Positions 24,194 to 41,541 of a stretch of DNA of 64,000 nt are shown piece by piece. Position 1 is the first letter of the stretch. Every line of letters begins with the position of its first letter. The DNA is from Neopusillimonas maritima (GTDB lineage Bacteria > Pseudomonadota > Gammaproteobacteria > Burkholderiales > Burkholderiaceae_B), in assembly GCF_003576595.1 (NCBI RefSeq), contig NZ_NQOU01000001.1:1-64000 (forward strand). The letters run 5' to 3'. The notes beneath the pieces were generated by a model. That model saw nothing but the letters and a program-made list of their open reading frames with translations, ran no database searches and was not told the DNA's origin. The position numbers and the translations under genes are program-made.

Positions 24194-25023
24194 GGTAATT
24201 GGCCAAGATCAATTCGGCTTTCCTCAGGGCTGTGAAAGTCGGAGCCGCGCGATGCAAGAAAGCCATAGCGTCGCGCAATTTTGGCATATTCAATATATTG
24301 TTCGGGATAATGGCTACCCGTTACCACCTCAATAGCCTGGCCGCCCAAGTCGCGGAAAGCGTCAAACAACTCGCTGAATTGGGTTGAGGAAAACCGATAA
24401 CGACCCGGATGCGCCACCACGGCCACACCGCCTGCTGCATGAATCCAGCCCAAAGCTTGTTGCAGCGATGCCCACTGCACCCCCACAAAGCCGGGCTTTC
24501 CCTCACCCAGATATGAATCGAATACTTGTTGCAACCGCTTGCAATAACCTTGGTCCAGCATGAAACGGGCAAAATGCGTACGACTCAGCAACAACGCATT
24601 GCCGGCATAGCTCAAAGCCCCTTCGTAGCAACCGGGAAAACCAAGTTTTTCAAGCTTATCGCCCATTGCCCGCGCGCGATCAGCCCGCCGCCGCCGTACC
24701 TCTTGCAAACCGTTCACCAATTGGATATTCGCCGGATCAATATTCAACCCAACAATATGAATCGTACGATTCATCCAGGTGACCGAAACTTCCACGCCGG
24801 GGATAAACTGCAGTCCCTGCTCATTGGCGGCAGCTCCTGCCGCAGTTAAACCAGACAGTTCATCGTGATCCGTCAGCGACCAGACTTGCACCCCTTGCCG
24901 AGCGGCGCGCAGCGCCAATTCGCGCGGATCCAGCACTCCGTCGGACTGGCTGGAGTGGCAATGCAAATCGGCGTTGACTTCCAAAAGATTCATTTTCAAT
25001 TCGGAGGGGGAAACAAACATCAT
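24148..25023 (-). CDS. PHP-domain phosphoesterase (RNase AM / YciV-like)
   Basis: Polymerase and histidinol phosphatase-fold enzyme, 291 aa. Metal ligands are visible in NADLHCHSSQSDG, SLTDHDELSG, the Glu of FIPGVEVSV, HIVGLN, AHPGRY and the C-terminal GSDFHSPEE. The E. coli homologue YciV degrades 3',5'-nucleoside bisphosphates and 5' ends of RNA. A start at 25023 has a weak AGGG site; ATG at 24993 is possible. It sits 21 bases after comEC on the same strand. Confidence 0.9.
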   Translation of the reverse strand: MMFVSPSELKMNLLEVNADLHCHSSQSDGVLDPRELALRAARQGVQVWSLTDHDELSGLTAAGAAANEQGLQFIPGVEVSVTWMNRTIHIVGLNIDPANIQLVNGLQEVRRRRADRARAMGDKLEKLGFPGCYEGALSYAGNALLLSRTHFARFMLDQGYCKRLQQVFDSYLGEGKPGFVGVQWASLQQALGWIHAAGGVAVVAHPGRYRFSSTQFSELFDAFRDLGGQAIEVVTGSHYPEQYIEYAKIARRYGFLASRGSDFHSPEESRIDLGQLPQLPSGVEPVWSAWL

Positions 25024-39873: not shown

Positions 39874-40410
39874 ATGTCTTGCACCCAACTCTGTGACACA
39901 CCCGAACGTTATGGTTTAGTTTCCCGCTTACTCCATTGGGGGATGGCTTTGGTATTACTTTGGCAGTTCACCTCTGTCATTATCCATACGCTGTTCGAAA
40001 AAACCGGTATCGATAAATTTTTCTGGGGAACACATAAATCGGTCGGTTCGTTACTGATGGTGCTGATTCTTTTACGTGTACTGTGGGCCCTCGCCAATCT
40101 GCGCAAACGCCCACCTGCTGTCAGCAAGTGGTCGATTACGGGACATGTTGTTTTATACATTCTAATGTTTGCCATACCCGTCATTGCACTTATTCGCCAG
40201 TATGGCTCAGGAAAAGCGTTCTCCCCCTTCGGCATCCCCCTCATGCCAGGATTCGATGAAACCGACAAAATTGAATGGATGATCGATCTGGGTAGCAATT
40301 TCCATGGTCTACTGGGCTGGACACTATTGGCAGCCGCGCTGGGGCACGCCGCTGCGGTGCTTTGGCATTATTTGCGCGGAGATCGTTACGTGCTTGAACG
40401 CATGAAATGA
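39874..40410 (+). CDS. Cytochrome b561 family protein
   Basis: Four-helix diheme membrane protein of 178 aa. Heme-ligand His are in SRLLHWGMAL (helix 1), GTHKSVGSLL (helix 2), NFHGLLGW and GHAAAVLWHYLRGD (helix 4). The pattern is the bacterial YodB/CybB type, which oxidises quinol and can protect against superoxide. AGGGA precedes the ATG. The 141 bases before it form the divergent promoter region shared with the ferritin-like gene. Confidence 0.93.
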   Translation: MSCTQLCDTPERYGLVSRLLHWGMALVLLWQFTSVIIHTLFEKTGIDKFFWGTHKSVGSLLMVLILLRVLWALANLRKRPPAVSKWSITGHVVLYILMFAIPVIALIRQYGSGKAFSPFGIPLMPGFDETDKIEWMIDLGSNFHGLLGWTLLAAALGHAAAVLWHYLRGDRYVLERMK

Positions 40411-40445
40411 AAAGACCTAACTCAGCAGTCAAATAAGGGTTTTCC

Positions 40446-40475
40446 TTGACACATCAAAGGGTCTCACGCTACCCT
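40446..40475 (+). promoter_or_regulatory. Candidate promoter of the infA2 leader
   Basis: A perfect -35 TTGACA (40446-40451) is followed 18 bases later by TACCCT (40470-40475). TATATA at 40475-40480 overlaps but is too far from the -35. Either -10 places the transcript start near 40482, about 220 bases before the infA2 start codon. The whole 293-base gap between cytochrome b561 and infA2 is occupied by this promoter and the leader elements listed next. Confidence 0.45.
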
Positions 40476-40577
40476 ATATAAATCGTTATCTATAAAGATA
40501 GTCATCAATTCAAGGGCTTGGTTATAAAAATAGCCGATCCCTATCAATCCGGGGCCCGCTTGCCCGGCCCTGCTTTT

Positions 40578-40600
40578 CACAGCTCGCGCTGTGCTTTTTT
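40578..40600 (+). terminator. Intrinsic terminator inside the infA2 leader
   Basis: CACAGC (40578-40583), loop TCGC, GCTGTG (40588-40593), then C and six T (40595-40600). It lies after the candidate promoter and about 100 bases before infA2. It could end a short RNA of roughly 115 bases or act as a transcription attenuator for infA2. Confidence 0.7.
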
Positions 40601-40616
40601 GTACCCCGTTAAACAA

Positions 40617-40678
40617 CGGCCGGCCTCACAAGGGCTACCTGTTTCAGGTGGCAATGCCCGGGCATTGCTGTTCGGCCG
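40617..40678 (+). other. Three-way-junction-like RNA fold ahead of infA2
   Basis: CGGCCG at 40617-40622 can pair with CGGCCG at 40673-40678. Enclosed are two complete hairpins: ACCTG-TTT-CAGGT (40637-40649) and the perfect 18-base palindrome GCAATGCCCGGGCATTGC (40651-40668). The fold ends about ten bases before the GAGG ribosome site of infA2, so it could control translation or RNA stability. Confidence 0.55.
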
Positions 40679-40703
40679 ACTATTACAAGAGGAAACTGTA
40701 CTC

Positions 40704-40958
40704 ATGGCTAAAGAAGAATTACTTGAAATGACCGGCTCGGTAACCGAAGTCCTCCCCGACTCCCGTTTTCGCGTAACGCTGGAAAACGGCCACCCAATCG
40801 TGGCATACACCGGTGGCAAAATGCGCAAGCACCACATTCGTATTCTGGCCGGCGACAAAGTCAAACTGGAAATGTCGCCCTACGATCTTAGCAAAGGCCG
40901 TATTGTATTTCGCCATATCGAAGGCCGCCCGCCCATGGCACGCAACAATCGGCGTTAA
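40704..40958 (+). CDS. infA2: Translation initiation factor IF-1, second copy type
   Basis: S1-like OB-fold protein that binds the ribosomal A site during initiation. 84 aa against 72 for ordinary IF-1; the core [49 protein letters not shown] is followed by a longer basic tail ([11 protein letters not shown]). Burkholderiales usually carry one infA in the ribosomal operon and this longer second gene elsewhere. The start ATG at 40704 is supported by the domain and by GAGGAAA upstream. The frame is open further upstream, but that region is the structured leader. Confidence 0.93.
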
Positions 40959-41001
40959 ACCGATTTCGCGTTACAGGTTCGCCCTGCTTCAGATAGACAA
41001 A

Positions 41002-41541
41002 CTAAATAATGGGTGACGGCGTCATGAAATGCTCAAGAACGCCCGATCGCTCATCGATGTCGGCCCATCTGCGGGTATCTGGAAACGTAATAACCGCGAG
41101 GCTCGCAGGTGGAAATTCATGCCTCAGTCGCACCACCGCATTTTTACTTCCCCGGCCTGTCAGCTTCAGAGCCAACCCTTGCATTCCTGGGTTATGCCCC
41201 ACCAGCAGCAAAGTCTGGCGTGAATCGGGTTGCGCCCCAAGCACATCCAGCAATGCCGTTATACCGGCCTCATAAATACGGTTTTCATACAGGCATTGAA
41301 CCGCCGTTGGCAGGCGCTTCTGCACTTGCGCCCAAGTTTGCCGGGTACGTTGTGCAGGCGAGATAACGGCCAGATCCGGAATAAAACCTTCCGTCGCCAT
41401 AAGCCTGCCCACCTCCAACGCTTCGGTCAGGCCGCGTTCGCTTAAATTTCGCTCGATATCCCCACCGCTTTCCGCAAAGCCGGCATGCGCATGTCTTAGC
41501 AATAGCAAACGTCGAACCTGATCAGGCATTACATTACTCAT
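41002..41541 (-). CDS. SixA-like histidine phosphatase
   Basis: Phosphoglycerate-mutase-fold phosphatase of 179 aa. Catalytic RHA motif in LLLLRHAHAG, Glu in NLSERGLTEALEVGRLM, SPAQRTRQTWA, and the second His in LLVGHNPGMQGLALKLTG. SixA removes phosphate from phospho-His of signalling or phosphotransfer proteins. It begins 24 bases after the thpR gene and is probably cotranscribed. Confidence 0.9.
   Translation of the reverse strand: MSNVMPDQVRRLLLLRHAHAGFAESGGDIERNLSERGLTEALEVGRLMATEGFIPDLAVISPAQRTRQTWAQVQKRLPTAVQCLYENRIYEAGITALLDVLGAQPDSRQTLLLVGHNPGMQGLALKLTGRGSKNAVVRLRHEFPPASLAVITFPDTRRWADIDERSGVLEHFMTPSPII

Follow-up and report, generated by a model that had tools for sequence, protein, structure and literature searches.

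Conserved stem-loops upstream of infA2, a gene for an IF-1 paralogue, form a presumed leader of possibly cold-shock type

The infA2 gene (40704..40958, plus strand of the window, that is, of the whole 64,000-nucleotide stretch analysed) encodes an 84-residue paralogue of IF-1 (TIGR00008, 108 bits; PF01176). A presumed, fast-evolving leader of some 225 nt stands ahead of it, folded into successive stem-loops denoted H0, H1, H2, HB, P2 and P4, and it may well be, with chances that we would put somewhat below even, that this leader acts like the leaders of cold-shock messages. The stem-loops and the promoter-like sequence ahead of them emerge from comparison of related sequences; the transcription start and the cold-shock-like working we infer. 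Plausibly, the cold-shock type is the leading interpretation, with a passive leader close behind. The cis-regulator suggested here by the first-pass annotation is thus plausible, since a conserved folded RNA does precede infA2.

The same genome has another infA copy (G000:C19:700849), and we know of no role assigned to infA2, the second copy. At least two infA matches were found in 32 of the 61 genomes examined (the two of G004 being halves of one split gene), and 112 of 268 genomes of the family have a match at E 1e-32. The upstream gene, on the same strand, encodes cytochrome b561 and ends at 40410. The ribosome site of infA2, AGAGGA, is seen in the sequence at 40688..40693 (plus strand). 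The InfA2 protein extends 13 residues, several of them arginines, past the match to the IF-1 model (residues 3–71), the extension being encoded at 40917–40955.

The promoter-like sequence (40446..40475, plus strand) is formed by TTGACA (40446–40451) and TACCCT (40470–40475) separated by 18 nt. It is kept in five congeners: TTGACA or TTGACT followed after 17–18 nt by TACCCT is present in all five species of the genus, about 230–260 nt before infA2. As a consensus promoter scan yielded no promoter, this sequence being under the threshold, the promoter claim rests on the conservation in five species. If transcription starts there, the leader would begin at about 40480 and be about 225 nt long, and hence the terminator-like hairpin H2 would lie inside it. 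For a long structured leader with its own promoter, as in the cspA type, speak the promoter-like sequence in five species and the conserved folds; against it stands the negative promoter scan, and the start site is putative. The fold of the 188-nt leader of the window has a z-score of −2.4.

The RNAalifold consensus for four species (the window species, G003, G002 and G001) contains H0, H1, H2, HB, P2 and a 10-bp P4, all on the plus strand, and adds two small helices of 3 bp each, a long-range one and a hairpin close to the 5' end; it contains neither P1 nor P3, two helices of the first-pass annotation discussed below. H0 (40513..40542) pairs AGGG-UUGGUUAU with AUAGCCGA-CCCU in the MFE structure of the window; in other congeners it has 8-bp arms, with a G-C pair changed to A-U between G002 and G004. 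It is the least certain hairpin, as the consensus and single-sequence folds differ in register: the alignment consensus pairs 40515–40523 with 40529–40535, and two two-sided changes belong to that alternative. H1 (40550..40572, CGGGGCC/GGCCCUG) retains 7/7 pairs in all five species, two of them with a two-sided change. H2 (40578..40600, CACAGC/GCUGUG followed by U6, terminator-like) retains 6/6 pairs with pair probability of at least 0.97 in all five, and its arms are CACAGC/GCUGUG, CGUAGC/GCUACG and CGCAGC/GCUGCG in three lineages. HB (40606..40619, CCGUU/AACGG) has 5/5 pairs in all five species, with one-sided changes only; its 3' arm overlaps P1, and its pair probability is 0.24 in the window, 0.93 in G003, 0.44 in G001 and G002, and 0.84 in G004. 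P2 (40623..40635) is GCCU/GGGC in the window and GCCCC/GGGGC in other lineages, and is identified by the consensus, by covariation and by the congener arms; its pair probability reaches 0.97–0.99 in G002 and G001 and 0.72 in the window, against 0.02 in G003 and no more than 0.36 in G004. Finally, P4 (40648..40671, up to 10 bp) holds an 18-nt palindrome, 40651–40668; all 10 pairs form in four species and 7/8 in G004, where the sequence is changed, and the pair probability of the core is 0.80–1.0. Folding of single sequences thus does not favour every hairpin in every species, which counts against the row: besides HB in the window and P2 in G003 and G004, this concerns H1 in G001 and G002 (0.01–0.35) and H0 in G004 (0.14). 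Most loop sequences vary from lineage to lineage within the genus; that of H1 is common to G001, G002 and G004.

With the two small helices omitted, 99.4% of the 156 cells of the six stem-loops pair, versus 33–50% when the arms are slid by 1–3 columns. The percentage paired, the number of double-change cells and the covariation score were reached by none of 500 shuffles. Pairs changed on both sides are no more numerous than in shuffles (8 versus 7.2; two each in H0, H1 and H2, one each in P2 and P4, none in HB), nor are further pair types (17 versus 18.9), the genus supplying about three lineages for covariation. The fifth species, G004, did not contribute to the consensus fold; with arms chosen by hand, it yields 8/8 pairs for H0, 7/7 for H1, 6/6 for H2, 5/5 for HB, 5/5 for P2 and 7/8 for P4.

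At the level of the family, we considered 98 distinct leaders, a set without duplicates by the last 150 nt, loci offering less than 240 nt of upstream sequence, the order-level loci L018, L020, L022, L024 and L030, and L002 and L021. The 188-nt leader has a mean fold z-score of −1.73, and 90 of the 98 values are below zero; the means for comparison are −0.69 for the upstream regions of 57 window genes and −0.78 for the next stretch upstream of the leaders. The stability could not be distinguished from that of nine other window genes preceded by a gap of at least 150 nt (mean −1.44, p 0.23), and, the leaders being mutually related, the p-values are too small. Along the 98 leaders, pairing is highest at −40 to −31 (0.70, with 0.56 in shuffles); the positions from −30 to −21 have 42% U, and from −20 to −11 pairing drops to 0.42 (0.53 in shuffles). 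Composition contributes to this profile. The window's own spacer is less U-rich than those of its relatives. Helices closing the 5' part on the 3' part are not enriched over the family (mean z-score −0.18, with 9/98 below −2).

The cold-shock-type mechanism may be outlined as follows. The row of stem-loops would end about 30 nt from the start codon, leaving a U-rich, less paired spacer to the ribosome site, as suggested by the relatives. The effect of the hairpins would be on translation and decay of the infA2 message, which they would slow or shape. In the cold, RNA-melting OB-fold proteins, of the CspA type or perhaps IF-1 itself, would open them, giving more of the IF-1 paralogue. In E. coli, IF1 levels rise in the cold, and the P1 infA transcript belongs to the cold-shock messages, its translation in vitro being raised 3–4 fold by CspA (PMC9947658); the same paper states that the csp quadruple deletion is not rescued by IF1 overexpression, which counts against the cold-shock reading. 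RNA chaperone and antitermination activity is ascribed to IF1 in a review (PMC3017892).

Of 189 loci, among which are nine identical-leader pairs and the canonical infA (L002), 22 have a cspA-type gene on the same strand no more than 1 kb upstream of infA2; in 19 of the 22 it ends at most 175 nt from the infA start. Four of the 22 (L169, L181, L189, L190) were obtained in the search of the family. The window's genus, with four loci among the 189, has an upstream cspA in none of them. In L022, L024, L030, L033, L036, L043, L048, L050, L189, L190 and some others, infA2 lies just past the cspA-type gene; the distance from the end of the cspA match to infA2 is 14 to 175 nt in the 19 loci, some of them with a terminator-like hairpin in between.

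A serious possibility, if one that we would not bet on, is that the leader is passive: the hairpins would shield the mRNA and leave the landing site of the ribosome unobstructed, and would sense nothing. The stems being kept while the arms and most loops change between lineages agrees with that, as does the pairing peak followed by an open U-rich spacer in the 98 leaders. So does the behaviour of the ribosome site in folding at different temperatures. The first-pass annotation had suggested temperature sensing, which could work by hiding this site; for the window, however, the SD has a predicted exposure of 0.55 at 37 °C and of 0.54 at 10 °C, and the means for the 98 leaders are 0.38 and 0.34, with 0.36 and 0.35 in shuffles. 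The predicted exposure is thus flat with temperature, which also counts against the cold-shock reading, and is neither higher nor lower than in shuffles, so that an RNA thermometer masking the SD finds no support. What speaks against a passive leader is the elaborate long-range closing helices of some relatives, more than protection seems to need.

In eight leaders from four genera (L007, L128, L008, L012, L013, L129, L130, L132), two hairpins are enclosed by the helix AAGCACC/GGUGCUU, after which come a U run and the SD. A model, R1, was built from these eight, group A being leaders with H1, H2 and two hairpins under a closing helix. At E 0.1 it matched in 16 of 268 family genomes, 14 of the matches being at infA2 (eight of these are the training leaders) and two weak ones elsewhere. 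There was no match at the window leader, either at E 10 or at E 0.1, or at leaders of the window's genus, which does not place them in group A. Of 17 loci tried with R1, 15 matched at E 0.005, eight of them those that trained it, and form the alignment A3; L133 and L014 remained unmatched. In the 15 rows of A3, two-sided changes are seen in 19 of 32 pairs, including 7/8 in the closing helix, in an alignment that is fitted to the model and has long insertions in some rows. Much less covariation is seen in A2, the unfitted alignment of 8 rows, with three two-sided pairs versus 1.8 in shuffles and none in the closing helix. Several group A leaders have a second, upstream copy of AGCACC, which could take the place of the first in pairing with GGUGCUU and so might form a switch.

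In nine Castellaniella-like leaders (the helix search covered nine of the ten g29 leaders, L148 being left out), the 5' part pairs with a stretch 30–40 nt before the start codon. Eight of the nine have variants of UCAGCGG/CCGCUGA or ACUGCGG/CCGCAGU; for L155 the search chose a different, longer helix. In these eight (L017, L042, L162, L163, L144, L124, L160, L147) AUCAGCGG pairs with CCGCUGAU, along with the compensatory GUCAGCGG/CCGCUGAC and ACUGCGG/CCGCAGU. In the Alcaligenes-type leaders L019, L044 and L172–L178, the last hairpin ends in GACGGGA, and CGGGA could pair with UCCCG just past the ribosome site; both are invariant in the nine leaders, so that covariation is uninformative. In two Advenella-type genomes infA2 is soon followed, on its own strand, by a tRNA gene (L114:1290-1362, L121:1880-1952).

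These helices could be taken to mean that infA2 leaders of the family form one fast-evolving RNA class, in which each genus has its own closing helix about 30 nt before the start codon, by the U-rich landing site: AAGCACC/GGUGCUU in group A, AUCAGCGG/CCGCUGAU in the Castellaniella-like leaders, and a register-shifting CGGCC helix in the window and G003. IF-1 or CspA would melt this helix, providing feedback on the IF-1 supply in the cold. We consider this generalization unlikely.

A transcription attenuator, in which H2 with its U6 would stop most transcripts unless IF-1 or a Csp opens H2, in the way that E. coli IF1 and CspA-family proteins act on terminators, seems improbable on the present analysis. 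H2 is situated downstream of the promoter-like sequence, is followed by U5–6 in four of five congeners and has compensatory changes; antitermination by IF1 is reported in a review (PMC3017892); and terminator-like sites were found in 25 of the 98 leaders versus 13.8 expected. However, G004 keeps the stem and has lost the U run (CUUGCAUG), so that the stem is conserved in 5/5 species and the U run in 4/5. Outside the window's genus, 21 of 94 leaders have a site, at varied positions, and the one site in 40380–41050 is at the chance level (0.9 in shuffles). Moreover, H2 with U6 could instead end the upstream cytochrome b561 transcript. The first-pass annotation had placed its fold after a terminator: a terminator-like hairpin is indeed there (40578–40593 plus U6), but it sits inside the presumed leader, and such sites are no more frequent here than by chance.

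The fold itself had been described there as a three-way junction, with autoregulation by IF-1 or temperature sensing as suggested roles. A junction to which IF-1 binds to regulate its own synthesis, or which senses temperature by hiding the ribosome site, we find very improbable as an account of this leader. All bases named in that description are in place, and the fold ends nine bases from the ribosome site, close to the ten suggested. In the MFE structure of 40590–40720, the closing helix P1 (CGGCCG/CGGCCG, 40617–40622 with 40673–40678, plus strand), the hairpin P3 (ACCUG/CAGGU, ACCTG-TTT-CAGGT in DNA, 40637..40649, plus strand) and the palindrome hairpin are all present, but an additional helix, GCCU/GGGC (40623–40626 with 40632–40635), makes the junction four-way. 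The stability of this fold is ordinary for its composition (z-score −0.66, 50 of 200 shuffles at least as stable). The predicted pair probability of P1 is 0.73 in the window and 0.01 in G003, and that of P3 is 0.96 and 0.99. The MFE structure of G003, whose InfA2 protein is identical to that of the window, has a junction closed in another register by CGGCC-CACA/UGUG-GGCCG; and a comparable junction-closing helix covaries in other genera, in the alignment fitted to R1. Against the junction, in the alignment register G001 and G002 conserve the palindrome hairpin (7/7 pairs) but not P1 and P3 (3/6 and 2/5), and two of the three stems thus fail the conservation by which the annotation itself proposed to judge the fold. 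Of the cells of the three helices 83.3% pair, P1 and P3 accounting for the entire deficit; moreover, P1 has bases in common with HB, and the 3' arm of P3 overlaps the extended P4. The flat SD exposure does not favour a sensor either, and junctions before the SD in MFE structures are found in 27 of 98 leaders versus 27.6 expected for a 118-nt stretch, and in 44 versus 38.0 for a 188-nt stretch. The MFE structures of G001, G002 and G004 have no P1-like helix closing the hairpins between HB and the ribosome site. Hence the idea that the window's genus conserves the three-way junction was rejected; at most, the junction is a variant of the window species and G003. A helix GAUAGUC/GACUAUU, which would join the start of the leader to the sequence following the fold, has 7/7 pairs in the window and G003 and 3/7 in G001 and G002, and was not adopted.

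There are three perfect palindromes of at least 18 nt in the window versus about 0.25 expected; the other two, each of 18 bases, are at 24757 and 63110 (ATGAATCGTACGATTCAT, ATCGAAGTCGACTTCGAT). That the perfect 18-bp dyad in P4 is a DNA operator was rejected and has a negligible probability, as at no more than one mismatch it is a single site in its own 3.25-Mb genome, occurs once in G003 (with one mismatch) and is absent from G001, G002 and G004, and as the dyad symmetry is lost in congeners while the RNA pairing stays, G003 having a broken symmetry (CCCAGG) and an intact P4 stem.

In the window, no Rfam family reached its gathering score, and the search of 18 related loci yielded two tRNAs only; a permissive search of 40430–40730 produced three sub-threshold matches, the best at E 1.4. 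Hence no match to a known family model assigns the leader to the cspA-type thermoregulators. No description of this infA2 leader was found among the titles and abstracts listed in searches of open-licence papers. In PMC7742992, infA2 of Bordetella pertussis is placed among ribosomal-operon genes, thus it is probably not this infA2. A structured leader with covariation and without an Rfam match marks infA2 as a possibly regulated gene, and the hairpins are concrete targets for reporter and probing work on whether the cell controls its supply of IF-1 through the IF-1 mRNA itself, something partly known in cold-shocked E. coli.

Among known systems, the E. coli cspA and P1 infA mRNAs are alike in being messages of OB-fold RNA-binding cold-shock or translation factors, with E. 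coli infA stimulated by CspA in the cold (PMC9947658); unlike them, the infA2 leader has no Rfam match and precedes a second infA copy, and cold induction and refolding are putative here. RNA thermometers masking the ribosome site share with it a structured leader of a possibly stress-linked gene, whereas the infA2 SD is masked no more than in shuffles, with no predicted temperature response. An aptamer core conserved across genera, as in metabolite riboswitches, is not seen, since R1 is unmatched in the window's genus and the loops mostly differ. Finally, the intrinsic-terminator attenuators resemble the infA2 leader in having a hairpin with a U run, here H2, within the presumed leader, and differ from it in that the U run of infA2 is not conserved in the genus.
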